A DNA stretch of 32,909 nt. It comes from Elusimicrobiota bacterium (lineage in GTDB: Bacteria; Elusimicrobiota; Elusimicrobia; Elusimicrobiales; UBA9959). The stretch lies in assembly GCA_016234365.1 (NCBI GenBank), contig JACRER010000041.1, positions 1 through 32,909 on the forward strand, written 5' to 3'. A program made the translations under genes and the position numbers. The notes under the pieces were generated by a model. That model saw only the letters and a list, made by a program, of their open reading frames with translations, was not told the DNA's origin and did not search any database. Of the stretch, positions 10,354-31,072 are shown piece after piece. The stretch's first letter is position 1. The number at the start of each line of letters is the position of its first letter.

Positions 10354-10856
10354 AGCCACGCCGCCCCGGCGCCGCCAGCCTTATAAGACTTTACCGCCTT
10401 AAACCGCACCCCGAGGGCGGCTACTTCAGGGAAACCTACCGGGCCTCCGGCAAAACCGTCACCGCGCGCGGCGCCCGCAATTTTTCCACCGCGGTATTAT
10501 TCCTGCTGTCAAAAGGGCAGACCTCGCGCCTGCACCGCATAGCCTCGGACGAGGTCTGGCATTTCTACTCCGGAGGCCCGCTGAAGGTCTCGGCCGTCCA
10601 TCCCGACGGGAGCACGAGCAGCGCGATACTGGGGCCCGATCCCTCGGCCGGGCACAAACCCCAGCACGTTGTCCCGGCCGGCTGCTGGTTCGGCGCGGCG
10701 CCGGAACCCGGAACCGCCTATTCGCTGGCCGGCTGCACCGTGGCGCCCGGCTTCGACTTCCGGGATTTCGAGCTGGGCGACAGGGGGGAATTGCTTAAAA
10801 AATTCCCTCGCGCCGCGAGAACTATAAGAAGCTTTACAGAACAAAGGATAAAATGA
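10350..10856 (+). CDS. DUF985/Cupin_5 family protein
   Basis: A 168-residue single-domain cupin. The family signature HPEGGYFRETYRA lies near residues 24-36; the cupin core follows with FLLSKGQTSRLHRIASDEVWHFYSG and VVPAGCWFGAAP, and ends in GCTVAPGFDFRDFEL. DUF985 proteins are double-stranded beta-helix proteins that may bind a metal and small ligands such as sugars; the biochemical reaction is not established. A GGAAGGG stretch precedes the ATG, which overlaps the lipoprotein stop; its own stop overlaps rnr by four bases. Confidence 0.93.
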   Translation: MKPRRPGAASLIRLYRLKPHPEGGYFRETYRASGKTVTARGARNFSTAVLFLLSKGQTSRLHRIASDEVWHFYSGGPLKVSAVHPDGSTSSAILGPDPSAGHKPQHVVPAGCWFGAAPEPGTAYSLAGCTVAPGFDFRDFELGDRGELLKKFPRAARTIRSFTEQRIK

Positions 10857-12886
10857 GAAAACACTGGAAACAAAAAGAAAAGCGCGGCGCCTCCGGCGGC
10901 CACGAAGCGATAGTAGAGGGCGTGATACAGCATAAAGGCACTTTCGCCTTCCTGCTGTCGGAAAAGCCCGGCGTAGAGGACGTTTTCATCCGCGGCCGCG
11001 GCCTGGACCTGGCCATGGACGGCGACAGGGTACAGGCGAAGGTGCGGCCCGAAAAGACCGGCCGCCTCGCCGGAGAGATCATAAAAGTGGTAAAGCGGGC
11101 GCACACCTCCATGGTAGGCATCCTGCGGCGCGTCAACAATTCCTGGGCGCTGTTCCCCGAGAAAGGCAGCGCGCCCCCGGCGCTGGTAAGCGGCTTCGCC
11201 CAGAAGCTGGTCCCGGTGGAAGGCTCTTTCGCGGTGCTGGAAGTAAAACGCTGGCCCGAGTCCGGCGCCGGCGCCTCCGGCATAGTCACCGAGATCCTCG
11301 GCGATCCCGGCGACATCCGCGCGCGCATAGACTCCATCCTGCGGGCCCGCGGCATCAACGAGGTTTTCCCTAAAGAAGTAACGGACCAGGCGGCCGCTTA
11401 CGGTTCCCGGCTCGAGCCGGCGGCCTGGAAAGGCCGCGAGGTCCTCTTCGACCTGCCGGTCTGCACCATAGACGGCGCCGACGCCAAGGACTTTGACGAC
11501 GCCGTTTCGCTGGAAGACCTGGGCAACGGCATGCTGCGCCTGGGCGTGCATATAGCCGACGTGGCCAATTACGTGAAGTTGGGGACCGCGCTGGACAAGG
11601 AAGCGTACGAACGCGCCACCAGCGTCTACCTGCCGGACCGCGTGGTGCCCATGCTGCCGCCGGCCCTGTCGGACAATCTCTGCAGCCTCGTACCGCGCCA
11701 GGAGCGCCTTACCCTGTCCGCCTTCATGGACATAGACCGCAACGGCAAGGTGACAAAACGCCGCCTGGCCGAAACGGTGATCCGCTCATGGCGCCGCTTC
11801 ACTTACGAGGAAGTGCAGGCCCTGCTGGACGGCGCCAGCGTGCCGGACGTCCACAAAAGCATCGGCGAAGCGGTGCTGCGCATGGGCGCGCTGATGGAAA
11901 CGCTCTACCGCCGCCGCGTGCAGCGCGGTGCACTGGACTTTAACCTGCCGGAATACAAAGTGAACGCGGACCCGCACGGCAGGCCGCTGGGCGTGTCGCT
12001 GCGGCCGCGGCTGAAAAGCCACCGGCTGATAGAGGAGTTCATGCTGCTGGCCAACGAGGCCGTGGCCACCGAACTCTACAACGCCAAGATGCCTTTCCTT
12101 CACAGGCGCCACGACACGCCGGACCCGCTGAAACTGAAGGCGCTCTCTTCTGCGCTGGGAGAACTGGGGCTGACCGCCGGCCACATAGAGGGCAAGAACG
12201 CCGCCAAAGGGCTGCAGGACGTGCTGCGCCAGGCGTCCGACCACCCGCTGACCAACCTCATAAACTCGCTGATGGTGCGCAGCATGCGCCAGGCCGTTTA
12301 CTCGCCGGAATCCGAGGGGCATTTTGGCATCGCCACGCGCTTCTACTCGCACTTCACGTCGCCCATACGCCGCTACCCCGACCTGATGACGCACCGCGCC
12401 GTAAAGTCGCTGCTGCGCGGCAAGAAAGAGAACCACGGCGCGCTGCCGCTGGACAAGGCCGGCGTGCATTGCTCCGAGCGGGAACGCGCGGCTTCCGACG
12501 CCGAGCATAAGTCGGTGGATATCATGCGCGCCGAGATGCTCAAGGAACTCGTGGGCTCCGTCATCGACGGCGCCGTCACCACCGTCATCGACAGCGGCGC
12601 CTTTGTAATGCTGGGCGAGACCGGCGCGGAGGGCCTGCTGCGCGTGAACGGGCTGAAGCCCGGCACCAAGGTGAAGGTGATGATAGCCGGCGTGGACACC
12701 GCCGAAGGGAAAATAGACCTGTCGCTGGAAGGGCGCCCGGCGCCCTCCGCCGGCGGCAAGCCGCAGGGCGGCGGCCAGGGGCAACCCAAGCCCGGGCGCG
12801 ACCGCTGGAAATTCTCGGACTGGAAAAAGGGCAAAGGCGGCGGTAACCGCGGCGGCGGACGCGGCCGGGGCCGCGGAAGGCGGTAA
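10853..12886 (+). CDS. rnr: Ribonuclease R (RNB-family 3'-5' exoribonuclease)
   Basis: A 677-residue RNase II/R protein. An N-terminal cold-shock-like OB fold (about residues 15-75) precedes the RNB domain, whose Mg2+ site is D207, D213, D215 and D216 in IDGADAKDFDDAVS. Other family blocks are PDRVVPMLPPALSDNLCSL and YSHFTSPIRRYPDL. It degrades structured RNA from the 3' end. The C-terminal S1 domain (from about residue 565) looks short: after AEGLLRVNGL it passes directly to KVKVMIAGVD, lacking about 25 residues usual between these strands. The last 50 residues are a Gly/Arg/Lys-rich tail. AAAGGA lies four bases before ATG. It ends the dtd operon and is followed by the structured element at 12913. 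Confidence 0.95.
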   Translation: MRKHWKQKEKRGASGGHEAIVEGVIQHKGTFAFLLSEKPGVEDVFIRGRGLDLAMDGDRVQAKVRPEKTGRLAGEIIKVVKRAHTSMVGILRRVNNSWALFPEKGSAPPALVSGFAQKLVPVEGSFAVLEVKRWPESGAGASGIVTEILGDPGDIRARIDSILRARGINEVFPKEVTDQAAAYGSRLEPAAWKGREVLFDLPVCTIDGADAKDFDDAVSLEDLGNGMLRLGVHIADVANYVKLGTALDKEAYERATSVYLPDRVVPMLPPALSDNLCSLVPRQERLTLSAFMDIDRNGKVTKRRLAETVIRSWRRFTYEEVQALLDGASVPDVHKSIGEAVLRMGALMETLYRRRVQRGALDFNLPEYKVNADPHGRPLGVSLRPRLKSHRLIEEFMLLANEAVATELYNAKMPFLHRRHDTPDPLKLKALSSALGELGLTAGHIEGKNAAKGLQDVLRQASDHPLTNLINSLMVRSMRQAVYSPESEGHFGIATRFYSHFTSPIRRYPDLMTHRAVKSLLRGKKENHGALPLDKAGVHCSERERAASDAEHKSVDIMRAEMLKELVGSVIDGAVTTVIDSGAFVMLGETGAEGLLRVNGLKPGTKVKVMIAGVDTAEGKIDLSLEGRPAPSAGGKPQGGGQGQPKPGRDRWKFSDWKKGKGGGNRGGGRGRGRGRR

Positions 12887-12912
12887 AAAGCAGCGGGACG
12901 GGAAAGCGCTAA

Positions 12913-13043
12913 AAAAGCGGCAGGGCAGTGCTTCTGAGGGTTGTCGCGCAGGCCGAGGCTTACGAAAGCGACGAGGCCGAGCGACAAGGTGCGAGCACGG
13001 TGTGCGAGACACCGACCCGAAGAAGCATTGCCCTGCTGCTTTT
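12913..13043 (+). ncRNA. Structured RNA element A: three-way-junction fold, copy 1
   Basis: The 131-base segment starts 26 bases after the rnr stop. Closing stem P1 is 12913-12935 with 13021-13043: 23 pairs, 21 Watson-Crick and two G-U in the plus sense (on the minus strand they would be A-C mismatches). Inside, TTGTCGC (12941-12947) pairs with GCGACAA (12981-12987) and encloses a 28-base GGCC...GGCC hairpin (12951-12978). A second hairpin, 12988-13013, has GGTG/CACC and GCAC-GGT-GTGC. The same plan, spacing and 11-mer GCACGGTGTGC recur at 19779-19908. No open reading frame fits. It could be a cis-acting 3' end, a small RNA or a REP-like repeat; the function is unknown. Confidence 0.65.
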
Positions 13044-13051
13044 ACTGCCGG

Positions 13052-13777
13052 CTACTTTACCAGCAGGGACTTCATCTTTTCAATATCCTTGCGGTAAGCT
13101 TCCGACGCCAGCAGCTTGGCGTGGTACAGGTCGCCAAAGCGCTTGCCGGCCTCTATGTCAGTCAGGTAATGCACGCCGCCTATCACGCGGTCCTGCGCTA
13201 TCTCGTCGGCCTTGGCAAAGAACTCCGCCTTCCGCTCCGGCGCGATATCCGTAAGCACGTTGGCGAACACCCGCGAGAAAGTGGAATGCCCGCTGGGGTA
13301 CGAGAAGCCGCTGCTCTTCTTTATGCAGGGCTCGGCCTGGCCGGGATAGGCAACGAACGGCCTCGGGCGCTCCCAGCGCTCTTTCATGTTCGTAACGGCC
13401 TCGTCCAGGTCCAGCGCCAGCCGGTCGAAGAATTCTTTAACTTCCTTAGGCAGCGGTTCCGGGAACGGGCTTTTGGCTCCCCAGAAAGAATCGTAAGTTG
13501 CCTTGGCCGTGATCGCGGCCTTGTCGCAGTCGGCCTTAGTGCGTTTTTTCTGCCACCCCATCGTTACGGCTATGTCGGCCTTCTGCGCTTCCGAGGCCGG
13601 GGCGGGGGGAGGCGCGAAGTCCAGCGCCTTGAACTGCTCCGCCGGCACGTAATAGACCCGCTGCGATATCAGGTGGGCCCGCTTCAGGGCTATCTTGGAG
13701 GAAGGCGAAGAGCACGCGCCGCCGCCGAGGGCCAGCGCGAGGAAAACCAGTAAGAACTGTTTTTTGCGTAAAGTCAT
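13052..13777 (-). CDS. PAP2/class A acid phosphatase-type lipoprotein
   Basis: A 241-residue protein from ATG at 13777 (an in-frame TTG two codons earlier is less likely because the -10 box ends beside it). The N-terminus is a probable lipoprotein signal with LGGGAC and C22 as the acylation site. All parts of the PAP2 phosphatase signature are present: K132-x6-R139-P140, P161-S162-G163-H164, and R197-x5-H203-x3-D207. The histidines should form a phospho-enzyme and release phosphate from a soluble or lipid phosphate ester outside the cytoplasm. The mature part has no obvious membrane spans, so a soluble class A acid phosphatase type fits better than a lipid phosphatase. Substrate unknown. Confidence 0.92.
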   Translation of the reverse strand: MTLRKKQFLLVFLALALGGGACSSPSSKIALKRAHLISQRVYYVPAEQFKALDFAPPPAPASEAQKADIAVTMGWQKKRTKADCDKAAITAKATYDSFWGAKSPFPEPLPKEVKEFFDRLALDLDEAVTNMKERWERPRPFVAYPGQAEPCIKKSSGFSYPSGHSTFSRVFANVLTDIAPERKAEFFAKADEIAQDRVIGGVHYLTDIEAGKRFGDLYHAKLLASEAYRKDIEKMKSLLVK

Positions 13778-18314: not shown

Positions 18315-19767
18315 GACCTCTTTTATAGGCAAGTTCACCGTACTTAAAGGCGCGGTACGCGAACTCTGGATAATCTTCGGCACGAAGATCATGACCATCC
18401 TGGCCTACAGCCTGGTGAACTCCGTGCTGGTGTTGTGGCTTTCCTCGGACCTGCGGCTCAGCGACAAGGGCGCGGGCTGGATAATAGGTTACTGGTCCAT
18501 AATCATGACCGCCTTCACCATCATGGTCGGCTCCTTCGTGGACGCCGTCGGCGTGCGCAGGTCCCTGATGGCCGGCTTCGGGCTGGCCGCGCTGGCCCGC
18601 CTTGTAATGGCTTTCTTCGCCGCTAAATGGATAGCCATCCCGTTCGGCCTCTTCCCGCTGGCGCTGGGCGAAGCCCTGCAGACCCCGGTAATGGCGGCGG
18701 CGGTAAAGCGCTTCACCACCACCAAGCAGCGCTCCATAGCCTTCTCGGTCTATTATTCCATGATGAACGTGGGCTTTGCCATAGCGGCCTACGTGGTGGA
18801 CAAAGTGCGCGGCGGCATGGGCGAATACGGCCATTTTACGGTGCCATATCTCGGCGTCCAGGTCAGCACTTACCAGACCATCATCCTCCTGGGTATGGCA
18901 TGCACCCTGCCTAACCTCATCCTGACCTGGCTGGCCATGCGCGAAGGCGTGGAAGCCACCGACGAAGGCGTCAAAATAGTCCCGCTGGTCCCCAAATACC
19001 CCGGCGAATCCTTCCTGAAAGCTTTCCTGCTGGCCAGCCGCGACGCGCTGAAGGACTGGTGGCGCATCTTCAGTTCGCTGTGGTCGCAGCAAACCTTCTA
19101 CCGCTTCCTCGCTTTCTTCGCCTTCGTGGTCTTCGCCAAGCTCATCCTGTTCCACTTCTACTACACCTTTCCCAAGGTGGCCATCCGCGAACTCGGCGAA
19201 GGCGCCCCTTTCGCCCGCCTCTTCGGCTTCCTGAACGCGGTGGTGGTCATTATCCTGGCGCCGGTGATAGGCGCGCTGACGCAGAAGTTCACCGCCTACA
19301 AGACCGTGGTCATCGGCACGGCCCTTACCGCGCTGTCCGTCTTCCTGATGGCCCTGCCGGCCGGCCTGTTCCAGGGCCTGGCCGACGGCTACTTCGGCTC
19401 GTCCATAGTCTGGTGGCTCGGCCTGGTGCGCCCGCTTAACCCGCTCTACGCGGCCATTGTGATGTGCGTGCTTATCTACTCCGTCGGGGAATGTTTCTAC
19501 TCGCCGCGCCTTTACGAATACCCGGCCGCTATAGCGCCCAAGGGGCAGGAGGGTTCCTACCTGGCGCTCTCCATGCTGCCTTATTTCGTGGCCAAGTTCT
19601 TCGCCGCGCCGCTGTCCGGCTACCTGCTGGCGGCCTATTGTCCGGCCGAAGGCCCTCGCAACTCGCAGATAATCTGGCTGATAGTGGGCTCCATGGCGCT
19701 GATAGCGCCCATCGGCCTGCTGCTGGCCAGGCGCTACATCCAGGTGCACGAAGCCGGCCGGGAGTAG
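18298..19767 (+). CDS. MFS transporter
   Basis: A 489-residue membrane protein with about 12 predicted hydrophobic spans. The loop between spans 2 and 3, GSFVDAVGVRRSLMAG, is the MFS A-motif (GxxxDxxGxR). A long cytoplasmic loop of about 60 residues lies between spans 6 and 7 (residues about 215-265). The overall feel resembles peptide/POT or sugar-phosphate carriers, but no substrate motif is seen. The start is preceded by a GGGAG box inside lnt. It closes the peptidase-lnt operon; co-transcription with an M20 peptidase is compatible with a peptide or amino acid substrate, which is only a suggestion. Confidence 0.88.
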   Translation: MTDTTETSFIGKFTVLKGAVRELWIIFGTKIMTILAYSLVNSVLVLWLSSDLRLSDKGAGWIIGYWSIIMTAFTIMVGSFVDAVGVRRSLMAGFGLAALARLVMAFFAAKWIAIPFGLFPLALGEALQTPVMAAAVKRFTTTKQRSIAFSVYYSMMNVGFAIAAYVVDKVRGGMGEYGHFTVPYLGVQVSTYQTIILLGMACTLPNLILTWLAMREGVEATDEGVKIVPLVPKYPGESFLKAFLLASRDALKDWWRIFSSLWSQQTFYRFLAFFAFVVFAKLILFHFYYTFPKVAIRELGEGAPFARLFGFLNAVVVIILAPVIGALTQKFTAYKTVVIGTALTALSVFLMALPAGLFQGLADGYFGSSIVWWLGLVRPLNPLYAAIVMCVLIYSVGECFYSPRLYEYPAAIAPKGQEGSYLALSMLPYFVAKFFAAPLSGYLLAAYCPAEGPRNSQIIWLIVGSMALIAPIGLLLARRYIQVHEAGRE

Positions 19768-19778
19768 CCCGGCCAGGA

Positions 19779-19908
19779 GCGCGCCGGCAGGGGGCCGGGT
19801 TAGCAAAACCATCAGAAGGCCGGGCCTTGCGTAAGCGGCCCGGCCGGATGAGGAGTGAGGGCACGGTGTGCCCGAACGTTTTTGCGTTCCGGCCCCCTGT
19901 CGGCGCGC
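19779..19908 (+). ncRNA. Structured RNA element B: three-way-junction fold, copy 2
   Basis: The 130-base segment starts 11 bases after the MFS stop. P1 pairs 19779-19799 with 19888-19908: 21 pairs, 19 Watson-Crick and two G-U in the plus sense. P2 is a 28-base hairpin (19818-19845): GGCCGGGCC pairs with GGCCCGGCC and encloses GC-GTAA-GC, a GNRA-type tetraloop; CATC (19810-19813) and GATG (19847-19850) extend it. P3 is GGGCAC-GGT-GTGCCC (19859-19873), sharing the 11-mer GCACGGTGTGC with element A at the same offset of 82 bases. P2 has the same length as in A. No open reading frame fits. Function unknown. Confidence 0.65.
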
Positions 19909-19962
19909 CAAAGCCCCCGTTACCTTTGTTACAGCCCCTTTAATATCTCCTTGCGAATTATC

Positions 19963-25405: not shown

Positions 25406-28400
25406 ATGAATCTCAGAAAGGCCATCCCTTTATCTTTGCTGGCGCTGTTGCTTTGCGCGCCGGCCGCGCGCGCCCTTAACTTCGGGCGCCACGGCCACAC
25501 CACCACGCTGCTGCCCAACGGCAACGTCCTGGTGACCGGCGGCGTCACCGGCATAGCTAACGCCCAGACCAACATCGACGAGGTTTTCTTCACCTCCGCC
25601 TCGGCTTTCGGCTACGGCTCCAATTCCGGCATGCCGGTCAGCATCGCGTCGCACACGGCCACGCTGATGGGCAACGGCATGGTGCTGGTGGCCGGCGGCT
25701 TCAACGGCGTGCTGCCGGTTGATGCGGCCTCGCTGTACAGCCCCAAGACCGGTCTCTGGACCAACCTGAACCCCATAGTAATGACCACCCGCCGCGGCGG
25801 CCACACCGCCACGCTCATAAACAAAGGCCCCAACTCCGGCAAGGTGCTCATCTGCGGCGGCCAGACCAACGTCGCCGGCGCACCGGTCATCGCTAACAGT
25901 TGCGAATTATTCACGCCCAATCCCGGCAACCCGCTCACCGGCTCTTTCGCCGCCGCCCAGGGCATGTCCAGCGAACGCATGGGCCACACCGCCAGCTCCA
26001 TAGCGGGGGGAAGGGTGTTCGCCTCCGGAGGCCGCCGCTGGGACGCCGCCAACTCCACCTGGACCTACCTGTCCACCAACGAGATCTACAACCCCGATAA
26101 CGACCAGTGGCAGCCGGTCACCGCCCTCGCCTCAGGCAGGGCCGAGCATACCGCCGTAGTCCTGAACAACGGGAACATACTTATTTCAGGAGGCTTCAAC
26201 GGAGCCAACAGGTTCGACGCGCCGGAAGAATACTGGTACCGGACCGCCGCCGGGATGTCACAGCAGCAGACTGCCGGCAGCCGTGGCTTCATGGAGAGCG
26301 CTGAGATCTTCGACTCCAACGGCGGCCGCGTCCCCGTTACCGGGGATGACTTCTCCGTAATGCCGTACAGGGTAGCCCGGCATTCCGCAGTGCTGCTGCC
26401 CGACGGCAAACAGCAGATCTACGGCGGTTACGGCAATATCCCGCCCACGTTCTTCGAGCAATCCCCGACCTTTGAACCAGGCTCCCAGGTCAATACCCAA
26501 AAAACAAATACCATGACGGCCAATGTGCTGCCAAGCAGCATCCTCCGTTATCTGCTGGAGTTCAACCTTTCCCGGCCCGTCAGCGGTCGCCTTGTGGAGG
26601 CGGACCTGTACTTCCCGGATTACCTGTCCGAAATTCCCTCCATCTCAGTTGCCAACGCCGAGATCTATATCAACAGGGGCAGGTCCGTCGCCGACAGTAT
26701 GGGGGTGGGCGGCACTATTGGATACGGCGGAGGCGTCTTCAAGAACGTCGTCCTGTTCGACAGCCCCACCGGAACGGCCGTATTCTCGCGCACTAAAGTT
26801 TCCGCGGACAAGACCCCCGCGACGGCCGGGTCCACCTTCATCTTCGTCCCGAACCCGATCCCGCCCAAAAATCCGGCCGTGCCATTGTCGGCCGGCTCTA
26901 TCCTTAACCTTTCGCTCACCATCCCGGTCCCCAGGGCTTACGTGGGCGGTATTATCAGCGGCACCATGACCATCACCGGCGGCCAGGTACTGGACGACGC
27001 CCTTGGCTACTGGAACGTGAACCTGCTGGGCGGGTCTGCCCCGTTCACCAGCGGCGTGGTAACCGACGACGTGCTTAACGGCACAGGCTGGGCCACCGGC
27101 AACATCTCTTTTACGAGTTTGGTGGGGGAGATAATAAACTCCACAGAAACGGCCCTCAGCAGCCCCAGGAACCCGACTGGAAACTTTGTAAGGGGGCTCT
27201 CCCTTACCGCGGATTACACCTCCACCGTGATCGATGTTGAGGACGCTAAATTCACGCTGACCGGTTCCTCCATGATAGTGCGTGAAATGATCTTCGCCGA
27301 CGCGCTGGCCTATGATCCGGCCACCGCCAAGTGGGAATTCGGCCCCACGGTCTTCCCCATCTTCAACCACTCCACCCTGGTCACGCCGGGAGCCGACGCC
27401 TTTATCATAGGCGGCCGCAATTGCGAACTTGCCCCCGATCCCGATTGCCTGCGCGCAAACAAGACCTTCACGGCCTCCGCGGCCGGCGCCGCCTACATAG
27501 AGCAGAACAGCAATGACTGGCAAGCGGCCGGTAAGTTGGGGCATAAGCGGGCCTTCCATTCCAGCACGCTGCTGGCCAACGGCAAGATCCTGGCCTGCGG
27601 CGGCTCCGACGGCACCGTAACCCTGGACTCCTGCGAACTTTTCGACCCGGCCACGGCCATCTGGACCGCCGCGGGCCCCATGACCTCGCCCCGCTCGCGC
27701 CATACCGCCACCATGCTGCCCAACGGCCGGGTGCTGGCTGCCGGCGGCACCGTGCACGCCTCCACACAGGTGATAGCCACGGCGGAGATCTACTACCCCG
27801 ACACTAACCGCTGGATAGCCATAAACTCCATGGTCACCCCGCGCGCCAACCACTCCGCCGTGCTCATGCCGGACGGCAACGTGCTGGTGACCGGCGGCGA
27901 CACCATCAACGGCTACACCAACACCTCCGAGATCTACCTTACCACCAGCTCCGTGTGGATAACCGCCGGCAACCTGGGCACAGGCCGGGCGCAGCATACC
28001 GCCACCCTGCTGCGCAACGGCAACGTGCTGGCAACAGGCGGCATAAACGGCACCGGCGGCCTGCGGTCCACCGAGATCTTCGACTTTGCGGCCAGGACCT
28101 GGTCCGCCGGAACCAACATGGCTTCCAGGCGCTACGGCCATACCGCCAACCTGCTGATGGACGGCCGGGTCATGGTGATCGGCGGTTCCGACGGGATCTC
28201 TCCTTTGGAAACCGGCGAGATCTACGCCGGCGCCAACTGGAACGCTATAAGCGGCATGCTGGTACCACGCGCCAACCACCGCACAACCCTGCTGCCCAAC
28301 GGCAAACTGCTGCTGACCGGCGGCGAGCGGCCCGGTATCGCACATTCCGTGGTCGAGGGCTACGACGTGGATTTCAGCACTTTCCAGACCCAGGGCGGTA

Positions 28401-31072
28401 TCTACAACCGCACTAACCACACAGCCGTACTGACCTCCAGCAACATGGTGGTGGTGGCCGGCGGCTGGAACGGGTCGCAGTACCTGGATTCCACGCAACT
28501 GGCATATTTCAGCTACTACCCGGACTCCTCCGGCTACCCGTCGGCTATCCAGCGCAACCCGCTGGTCTCCACCGCTACCGCCATCCTGGACCGGGGCGAC
28601 AGGCTGACGCTGCTCAGCGGCACCTCCAATTTCCACGGCATTTCAGAAGCCGCCGGCGGCGGCGCCGGGTCCATGAATGCTTCGCATCACAACCCGCGCG
28701 TCTACCTGCAGCAGATAGACAGCCCCAGCGGCTACCTGCTGGACATGACCACCCGCCTGTACACTCTTTACGGCGGCCCCAACTCTACCTGGGACACTAC
28801 CGTCTCTTCCATAACAATAACCCTGCCGCCCAACGCCTGGGAAATGCCCTACGGCTGGTATCACGCCCGCGTGGCGGCCAACGGCCAGTTCTCGCCCGGC
28901 ATACCCGTGCAGGTCTCGCAGCCGCGCCCCGCCGGCGTCCCTACCGCGCCCACCGCCTCCAATATCAGCCCCAGCTCCATCACCTGGTCCTGGACCAACG
29001 GCGGCGTCGCTACCGCCGACGGCTACGCCATCTACGCCTCCAGCGACGGGGTGTTCATTTCCACCATAGCTTTCGGGGCGGCGCCGTCCTACACGCAGAC
29101 GAACCTGCAGCCCAACACCATCATCTCTATCAAGGTGAACGCCTACAACACCGGCGGCGGCGGCCCGCTGGCGCAGTCCTCCACCTATTACACGCTGGCG
29201 TCCTCGCCCACTTTCCTGGCGGTCACGCAGGCCAACTTCACCACGGCTTCGCTGGCCTGGGGGGACAATAATAATTCCCCTTACACCCAGTACGAGCTGT
29301 CCATGTGCAAGGACTCCAACTTCGCCAGCCCGGTGGCCATTTCCACGCCCATACCGTTCAATCTCAACTACACCAGCACTTCCGCAACGGTGACCAGCCT
29401 CTCGGCGGACAAGATGTATTACTTCCGCGTCAGGGCGCGCAACGGCGCGGGGATAACCACTAACTTCCAATCCAAAGACCTGCTGGGCAACACGGTCTCC
29501 ACCATAACCGTTTCCGCGATGAACAACTTCTCCGGGACCGCCGTCAGCACGCACGCCATCAACTGGGCGTGGAGCGCCTCCGACGGCGCGGACTACTACG
29601 AGCTTTTCGACATCACCGTGGACACTTCGCTGCCGGTCTTCGTGGGCTCCACCACGTTCACCGACCTGACGCAGGCCGGCCTGCTGGCCAACGTCCCGCA
29701 CCTGGTGGCCGCCCGCGCCGCCAAGAACAACCCCGGGTTTGGCGCGGTCTACGGGCCCCTCACGCCCCCGCAGTTCGTCTATTCCCTCGCGTCACCGCCG
29801 CTGCCCCACCCTACCGACCCGTTCATCGACGTGACCACCGGCAGCTTCACCATGAACTGGCTGGACAACGGCAACTCCACCTGGACCGTCTACAGGGTAT
29901 CCATCTCCACCGCCAGCGATTTCACGGCCAACGCCACCAGCACGGTCTCCGTGGTCGGGACCACCCGGGCCTTCGGCAAACTGGGCGCCAACACGCGCTA
30001 CTACGTCAAACTCGCCGCCATTAACGGGGACGGCGTCTATTCCTCCTATCTCTCCATGGGCACCAAGTACACGCTGGCCCGCGCGCCCGCCGGCGTTACG
30101 CCCACCGACATACAGATGTCCGGAGTCACCATCGCCTGGGACAAGAACAACAATTCCCCGGAAACCATCTACGAGGTGCGCGGCACTACCGGCAGCTTCC
30201 TGGACACGGTGGTCACCCACCTGCCGTTCTACCTGGGCTACACCGGCAACACCCACACCATGAGCGGCCTGCTCACCGCCACCACTTACTATTTCGACGT
30301 CGCCGCGAAGAACGGAGAAGGGATCATGTCCCCGAGGGCGCAGGCCGTACCGGCCGCCTTCACCACCCCCGGGCCCGCCGGCTCGCCCGCCGGCTCCATC
30401 GGCGGCGTAGCCTCGCCCACGGTCCAGACCGTGATCTCGGGCACGCTGCCCAACGCCCGCTCCGTCACCCTTACGGTCCCGCCCGGTTCTTTCCCGGTAG
30501 CCACGGCCATCGCCGTTTCGTCCTCGGTCAGGAGCAGCTGCGGCTCCTATACCGTCTGCGGCCAGACGGTGGACGTGGAGGTCTTCAGCCAGAACGCCGC
30601 GCAGCCGCAGGTGCCCGTGACGCTGCAGCTCGGCTACGGCTGCACCATCCCCGACACTTCGAAGCTGGTCATCGCGCGCTACAACGAGGTTTCAGGCGAA
30701 TGCCTGCCGCTCGAGACCCGCATAGACCCGGGCGCGCGCACCATCACCGCCACGCTCAACCACTTCAGCGAGTTCCAGCTGATGCTGCGCACCGCTTCCA
30801 CAAGCCTCACGGACGTCAAGATCTACCCCAACCCGTTCCGCACCAACCGCGGCAACGGCTTCATGACCATCGCCAACATGCCCGCCGGCGCCAGCGTGCG
30901 CCTCTACACCCTGTCCGGCGACAAGGTGTGGGAAGGCACCGCGGACGGCACCGGCATCATCATCTGGCGCGGCGTCAACAAATCCGGCCAGCTGGTGGCC
31001 AGCGGCGTCTACCTGGCCGTTATCGATTCCACCGCCGGCAAGAAAGTTTTCAAACTGGCGGTTGAAAGGTAA
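25406..31072 (+). CDS. Giant secreted kelch/fibronectin III protein with type-A-sorting-like C-terminus
   Basis: An 1,888-residue protein with a signal peptide ending PAARA. At least 14 kelch-like motifs of the form HTATLLPNGNVLVTGG occur, six in residues about 28-345 and eight in about 640-1030. A beta-rich region of about 300 residues (350-640) with no recognised family separates them. Residues about 1040-1170 resemble the galactose-oxidase early-set domain. Five fibronectin III domains follow (about 1175-1660), then a ZU5-like segment with VPPGSFPV, and a C-terminal domain from about 1802: VKIYPNPFR, VRLYTLSGDKVWEG, LVASGVYLAVID and KKVFKLAVER. That end matches FlgD-Ig/type-A sorting domains cut or anchored during secretion. 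The PorV-like gene starts two bases after its stop. It is probably exported to the cell surface. Confidence 0.9.
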   Translation: MNLRKAIPLSLLALLLCAPAARALNFGRHGHTTTLLPNGNVLVTGGVTGIANAQTNIDEVFFTSASAFGYGSNSGMPVSIASHTATLMGNGMVLVAGGFNGVLPVDAASLYSPKTGLWTNLNPIVMTTRRGGHTATLINKGPNSGKVLICGGQTNVAGAPVIANSCELFTPNPGNPLTGSFAAAQGMSSERMGHTASSIAGGRVFASGGRRWDAANSTWTYLSTNEIYNPDNDQWQPVTALASGRAEHTAVVLNNGNILISGGFNGANRFDAPEEYWYRTAAGMSQQQTAGSRGFMESAEIFDSNGGRVPVTGDDFSVMPYRVARHSAVLLPDGKQQIYGGYGNIPPTFFEQSPTFEPGSQVNTQKTNTMTANVLPSSILRYLLEFNLSRPVSGRLVEADLYFPDYLSEIPSISVANAEIYINRGRSVADSMGVGGTIGYGGGVFKNVVLFDSPTGTAVFSRTKVSADKTPATAGSTFIFVPNPIPPKNPAVPLSAGSILNLSLTIPVPRAYVGGIISGTMTITGGQVLDDALGYWNVNLLGGSAPFTSGVVTDDVLNGTGWATGNISFTSLVGEIINSTETALSSPRNPTGNFVRGLSLTADYTSTVIDVEDAKFTLTGSSMIVREMIFADALAYDPATAKWEFGPTVFPIFNHSTLVTPGADAFIIGGRNCELAPDPDCLRANKTFTASAAGAAYIEQNSNDWQAAGKLGHKRAFHSSTLLANGKILACGGSDGTVTLDSCELFDPATAIWTAAGPMTSPRSRHTATMLPNGRVLAAGGTVHASTQVIATAEIYYPDTNRWIAINSMVTPRANHSAVLMPDGNVLVTGGDTINGYTNTSEIYLTTSSVWITAGNLGTGRAQHTATLLRNGNVLATGGINGTGGLRSTEIFDFAARTWSAGTNMASRRYGHTANLLMDGRVMVIGGSDGISPLETGEIYAGANWNAISGMLVPRANHRTTLLPNGKLLLTGGERPGIAHSVVEGYDVDFSTFQTQGGIYNRTNHTAVLTSSNMVVVAGGWNGSQYLDSTQLAYFSYYPDSSGYPSAIQRNPLVSTATAILDRGDRLTLLSGTSNFHGISEAAGGGAGSMNASHHNPRVYLQQIDSPSGYLLDMTTRLYTLYGGPNSTWDTTVSSITITLPPNAWEMPYGWYHARVAANGQFSPGIPVQVSQPRPAGVPTAPTASNISPSSITWSWTNGGVATADGYAIYASSDGVFISTIAFGAAPSYTQTNLQPNTIISIKVNAYNTGGGGPLAQSSTYYTLASSPTFLAVTQANFTTASLAWGDNNNSPYTQYELSMCKDSNFASPVAISTPIPFNLNYTSTSATVTSLSADKMYYFRVRARNGAGITTNFQSKDLLGNTVSTITVSAMNNFSGTAVSTHAINWAWSASDGADYYELFDITVDTSLPVFVGSTTFTDLTQAGLLANVPHLVAARAAKNNPGFGAVYGPLTPPQFVYSLASPPLPHPTDPFIDVTTGSFTMNWLDNGNSTWTVYRVSISTASDFTANATSTVSVVGTTRAFGKLGANTRYYVKLAAINGDGVYSSYLSMGTKYTLARAPAGVTPTDIQMSGVTIAWDKNNNSPETIYEVRGTTGSFLDTVVTHLPFYLGYTGNTHTMSGLLTATTYYFDVAAKNGEGIMSPRAQAVPAAFTTPGPAGSPAGSIGGVASPTVQTVISGTLPNARSVTLTVPPGSFPVATAIAVSSSVRSSCGSYTVCGQTVDVEVFSQNAAQPQVPVTLQLGYGCTIPDTSKLVIARYNEVSGECLPLETRIDPGARTITATLNHFSEFQLMLRTASTSLTDVKIYPNPFRTNRGNGFMTIANMPAGASVRLYTLSGDKVWEGTADGTGIIIWRGVNKSGQLVASGVYLAVIDSTAGKKVFKLAVER

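Follow-up and report, generated by a model that had tools for sequence, protein, structure and literature searches.

The locus and its two folded copies

The window, the whole stretch of 32,909 nucleotides analysed here, comes from a genome of 2.7 Mb (G000) and contains two copies of a folded intergenic element (Table 1). Copy 1 is placed between the convergent rnr and PAP2 genes, while copy 2 lies between a tandemly arranged MFS gene and the gene of an AMP-binding enzyme. Also encoded in the window, on the plus strand at 25436–31072, is a protein of 1878 aa rich in Kelch and fibronectin type III repeats.

The segment containing copy 1 (12900–13060) has a minimum free energy of −87.6 kcal/mol (z −8.0), and that containing copy 2 (19765–19925) one of −104.7 kcal/mol (z −7.4); none of 200 shuffles was as good in either case. 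The coordinates agree with the preliminary description of copy 1 as a 131-nt fold with a 23-bp stem and two inner hairpins. The homologous second copy named there was also confirmed, and both segments belong to one dispersed family.

The fold consists of a long closing stem (P1; 23 bp in copy 1), an arm (P2) that ends in hairpin 2, and hairpin 3. In copy 1 the three-way junction has at its foot, in the modelled fold, a candidate tandem G-A mismatch and three G-C pairs between 12936–12940 and 13016–13020. The apex of hairpin 2 in copy 1, C-GAAA-G, is readable as a GNRA tetraloop, with the minimum-energy fold drawing a slightly different loop. The corresponding GGCC...GGCC hairpin of copy 2 occupies 19818–19845, and the 11-mer GCACGGTGTGC is found at 12995–13005 in copy 1 and at 19861–19871 in copy 2.

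Table 1. Features of the two element copies and of the genes flanking copy 1 (positions in the window).
Feature	Position	Strand	Evidence or remark
Element copy 1, whole	12913..13043	+	fold z −8.0; covariance-model match 132.6 bits, E 6e-24
Copy 1, P1 closing stem, 5′ arm	12913..12935	+	pairs with 13021–13043; P1 covaries across the family
Copy 1, junction foot GA-GGG, opposite CCC-GA (13016–13020)	12936..12940	+	sequence and fold
Copy 1, P2 junction arm (TTGTCGC with GCGACAA), encloses hairpin 2	12941..12987	+	fold; covariation
Copy 1, hairpin 2 (28-nt GGCC...GGCC)	12951..12978	+	invariant columns in alignment A1
Copy 1, hairpin 3, GGTG-CGA-GCAC-GGT-GTGC-GAG-ACACC	12988..13013	+	loop GGT in 50/50 copies; stem covaries
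Copy 1, P1 closing stem, 3′ arm	13021..13043	+	pairs with 12913–12935
Element copy 2, subfamily B	19779..19908	+	fold z −7.4; model match 78.2 bits
rnr-type RNase, RNB domain; next to copy 1 on its 5′ side, outside the element	10853..12886	+	Pfam RNB, E 8.6e-105
PAP2-family protein; next to copy 1 on its 3′ side, convergent, outside the element	13052..13777	−	Pfam PAP2, E 5.7e-10

Family size and distribution

A DNA search of the source genome with copy 1 gave 14 matches, itself included. The covariance-model search of this and related genomes that the preliminary description had suggested was carried out with a model (R1; 125 positions, three helices) built from 18 copies, and it recovered 38 copies in the source genome at E ≤ 1.1e-5; copies 1 and 2 are thus no chance pair. 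Copy 2 falls in a sister subfamily that has its own near-identical relatives (identity up to 96% in the DNA search). Across 31 genomes of the same genus, between 8 and more than 56 copies were counted per genome, the upper figure being limited by the number of candidates scored, and a deeper search of one genome (G019) found about 100. A single element measures approximately 130–200 bp; within the model most span 120–150 bp, and those with P1 extensions are longer.

In a survey of 248 genomes of the phylum, copies were found in genera g1, g10, g12 and g13, singly in g3 and rarely in f7; family f13 yielded one weak copy, and f2, a family of small genomes, gave none. Genera g2, g4, g5, g6, g11 and g14 rank as non-carriers. 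The genus of copy 1 has more copies than the three further carrier genera of its family. A pattern scan of GTDB contigs placed 79 of the 80 listed loci in Elusimicrobia MAGs or in MAGs titled only 'bacterium', and the one Marinobacter match among the listed loci is probably due to chance. At the Rfam gathering cut-off, the window matches only a tRNA and other copies match nothing, in keeping with the earlier failure to recognise a known RNA family; permissive searches returned matches at chance level only. A literature search on Elusimicrobia repeats found nothing relevant.

Covariation, conserved loops and the folded strand

The covariation anticipated in the preliminary description stands well clear of its controls: the score for 104 copies was 0.520, whereas shuffling gave 0.139 ± 0.005 and sliding the partners no more than 0.095; for 18 copies it was 0.382, with 0.161 ± 0.013 after shuffling. 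Alignment A2 was fitted to the covariance model and hence leans towards structure; alignment A1, made by sequence only, gives the same signal. The folded shape is clearly preserved, in that the stems co-vary and the loops stay fixed. The GGT loop of hairpin 3 is present in every one of the 50 copies read in the source genome and in the sister species G002 and G011. The commonest reading of hairpin 2 is RC-GNAA-GC, with a loop spectrum of GTAA/GCAA/GAAA, as counted in 50 copies outside the pattern scan; loop counts from the GTDB loci were left out, since those letters were prescribed by the scan pattern itself. P2 may carry an extra extension of approximately 20–40 nt, which sister species have gained or lost at the same site.

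RNA folding energy is lower on the plus strand in 46 of 50 copies, with a mean difference of −7 kcal/mol, compared with 46 of 99 flanking controls. Mismatches in P1 are likewise asymmetric (129 copies: 64 G-A against 3 C-T, and 47 G-T against 30 A-C). Together, the energy bias and the mismatch asymmetry identify the plus strand as the single strand under selection, which the preliminary description had proposed from two G-U exceptions. Its further claim of selection on RNA structure holds in part: covariation supports selection on a single-strand structure, but the plus-strand evidence would fit RNA or single-stranded DNA alike, and sequence cannot separate the two.

Gene context, doublets and element ends

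About 80 copies were placed relative to genes called with a simple hexamer gene caller, doublet members being counted separately. Of these, 27 lie in sense and 27 in antisense to genes, 21 between convergent and 5 between divergent genes; the background comprises 148 tandem gaps, 39 convergent ones and 45 divergent ones. Copies are thus randomly oriented to genes and avoid divergent promoter gaps. Placement on either gene strand at equal frequency, together with dozens of copies per genome, identifies a dispersed repeat and is at odds with the discrete RNA element tied to rnr that had been proposed.

Close pairs are all arranged head-to-head (−,+), which holds for 14 of 14 database loci, for 21 of 21 pairs in G019 and for all 4 pairs of G029; four of the database pair loci come from the same genome as G019, so that at least 35 pairs are distinct. 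Several doublets have a similar spacer of 45–60 nt. Read by eye, the element has recurrent ends, either CGGAGGGG / GACTNNGCATCTCGCGG or GGGAGCGGG / CTTGCAGGCCTGCC, and T-runs after P1 are rare, copy 1 having TTTT inside its stem end. In this respect the element does not fit an intrinsic terminator, and the earlier doubt about a terminator, raised by the missing T-run at copy 1, extends to most copies.

On the large contigs of G019 and G029, single copies share the strand of their neighbour in 50 cases and differ from it in 28 (hand count), a clustering that neither gene direction nor GC skew explains. A replication-strand bias was considered and rejected: two contigs of G029 (C41 and C51) seemed matched to gene-corrected GC3 skew, but on other contigs the agreement was limited to 7 of 18 singles, and no such bias appeared among 67 database loci.

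At one locus of another genome (L336:6028–9365; G234:C66), four tandem ORF6N-domain genes each have a same-orientation element beside them, at approximately 850 bp per unit, and one copy in the source genome (C26) likewise adjoins an ORF6N gene. In the comparison with integron attC sites, no array was found other than that of G234, in which a single ORF6N gene is repeated together with the element; a cassette array was rejected there in favour of tandem duplication.

Turnover of sites and evolution in place

At the rnr site, all 12 relatives listed, including the nearest (G013), have a hairpin where the source genome has the element. This hairpin is bidirectional and terminator-like, mostly CCGGAGG...CCTCCGG, with A and T tracts; in the source genome the element sits between A6 and T4. 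The stereotyped CCGGAGG...CCTCCGG terminator downstream of rnr is kept in most of the same-genus species read (L083–L105). The site of copy 2 holds an element in the same orientation in G000, G013, G021 and G014 and an inverted one in G026, and a small hairpin or nothing in other relatives.

Most element sites are common to the sister species G002 and G011, so movement must be slow or old. At unshared sites a gene or another perfect hairpin stands in the element's place. One such hairpin, TGGGGTCAGGTCTTGCATTTCAAC...GTTGAAATGCAAGACCTGACCCCA, occurs at the sister species' element position at L339 (G011:C35) and L344 (G002:C203) and looks like a separate REP-like repeat. Elsewhere, two elements approximately 1.4 kb apart in G011 (L314) correspond to one in G002 (L297/L299), which suggests that copies bounded a deletion or an insertion here. 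Clean insertions flanked by a target-site duplication were not found. In the best candidate, G011 L307 against G002 L296, the G002 sequence may be a deletion remnant, because its outer arms recur at another copy (L323/L329); an inverted target duplication at insertion was rejected on the same recurrence.

Eight orthologous copies were compared between G002 and G011, whose flanks are 4.8% diverged. Among their 448 stem pairs there are 20 double changes, 17 of them still paired, where 2.4 double changes are expected if the arms change independently. This excess indicates that pairing is maintained in place and that the copies are not decaying freely; dead mobile elements would not be expected to show so much upkeep of pairing in settled copies. 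Some new P1 segments have no counterpart among the other copies fetched and so speak against a simple conversion from a paralogue.

Candidate mobilising enzymes

Y1 (RAYT-type) transposases are present in most carriers and also in non-carrier genera. They were not found in the draft genomes of carriers G003, G016, G024, G026 and G031, which have 29–55 copies each, and none of 12 fetched Y1 genes, four to five of them from non-carrier genera, had an element within 1.5 kb. Reverse transcriptases were not found in most of the carriers' draft genomes. Both enzymes were rejected as partners, their distribution being mismatched with that of the element.

Comparison with known repeats

REPs are single hairpins of 20–40 bp tagged GTAG or CGTC, of which the GTAG class is associated with RAYT genes (PMC3116915, PMC3733652). 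REPINs are inverted doublets with compensatory stem changes (PMC3116915), and GTAG and CGTC REPs form head-to-head dimers (PMC3733652). The Elusimicrobia element is similarly intergenic and present in many copies, with predicted single-strand hairpins, compensatory changes and head-to-head doublets with a short spacer. It differs in its 130–200 bp and three helices, in ends that carry no GTAG or CGTC tag (judged by eye and not by a formal scan) and in having no consistent RAYT link. Of the four features compared for the REP/REPIN system with RAYT, namely size, end tag, nearness to Y1 genes and doublet order, only the inverted doublet order fits. The REP-like repeat family that the preliminary description gave as its main alternative was nevertheless closer to the truth in predicting a dispersed repeat, even though REP size, tag and RAYT features are absent.

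ERIC/IRU repeats are 127 bp long, with a stem joining the 5′ and 3′ ends, a 7-bp TIR and a TSD (PMC2229807). In size and general architecture, the only respects compared, the Elusimicrobia element is alike, with intergenic placement and a long end-to-end stem. It belongs to another lineage and seems to have another sequence, its closing stem is hypervariable with covariation while its inner loops are conserved, and no ERIC-type 7-bp TIR and TSD were found in it. The CIR repeats of Caulobacter and Brucella consist of two arms joined by a linker, contain a GANTC motif and lack a stem between the 5′ and 3′ ends (PMC2229807). Like the Elusimicrobia element they are dispersed, fit a conserved model of RNA secondary structure and have a loop motif that is conserved, but only the Elusimicrobia element has a closing stem. 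Set against bacterial MITEs, the P1 arms are paired yet variable in sequence, and no clean empty site was found. By analogy, the element resembles the REP and ERIC families in its working, although membership in any of them is not established.

Interpretation and rival explanations

The family is probably a new dispersed, non-autonomous, REP/ERIC-like mobile structured repeat. Several observations weigh against this reading: clean insertions with a target-site duplication were not found, most sites are common to sister species, neither Y1 transposases nor reverse transcriptases track the element consistently, and pairing is upheld in settled copies. Such an element would spread as a folded single strand, either ssDNA or RNA, its conserved loops being recognised by a putative mobilising enzyme. 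Gene 3′ ends would tolerate it, and ordinary terminator hairpins could be replaced there; in settled copies, selection or arm-to-arm correction would continue to uphold the pairing. A bolder version, offered tentatively and as rather doubtful, is a new class of mobile element defined by a three-helix single-strand fold and not by sequence, in which stems are rewritten and two loops are recognised by a putative enzyme, and which exists as singles and head-to-head doublets in the intergenic regions of one Elusimicrobia lineage.

An element that serves the host at gene 3′ ends, as a large terminator acting in both directions, as an insulator or as a structure that blocks RNases, selected locus by locus, would account for the enrichment between convergent genes and depletion from divergent gaps, for the pairing maintained at orthologous copies, and for the replacement of a bidirectional terminator at rnr, where the A6 and T4 tracts remain around P1. 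This is unlikely, given that most copies are without a T-run after P1, that many relatives have small hairpins instead of the element at the same gene pairs, and that 8 to 100 copies per genome is too variable for a required part. A structured RNA with its own function, made from the plus strand as a small RNA or SINE-like retroelement, appears quite improbable. It would suit the strong plus-strand fold preference, the GNRA-type apical loop, the G-A mismatches and the invariant loops, but G-A pairs and GNA-type loops are tolerated in DNA hairpins too, no Rfam relative was found, and no reverse transcriptase was found in most carriers, G019 with its roughly 100 copies among them.

Covariation could also arise free of selection, if copies converted one another ectopically or if one arm of a palindrome served as the template for correcting the other. 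The double changes are indeed bursty, with approximately five in one stem at L310/L293 and none at L316/L311, and some hairpin-2 variants recur among copies; however, several of the altered P1 segments are unique among the fetched copies, and the invariant loops and strand asymmetry would be left unexplained, which makes this origin very improbable.

The mobile structured repeat that we favour is kept by its fold more than by its sequence, in a poorly studied phylum, and pairing is kept at individual settled copies. It makes testable whether such repeats are selfish, serve the host or owe their lasting pairing to a copying mechanism, and it provides a marker for finding the putative mobilising enzyme. 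Several copies are located at contig ends, and the element may explain some breaks in MAG assemblies.
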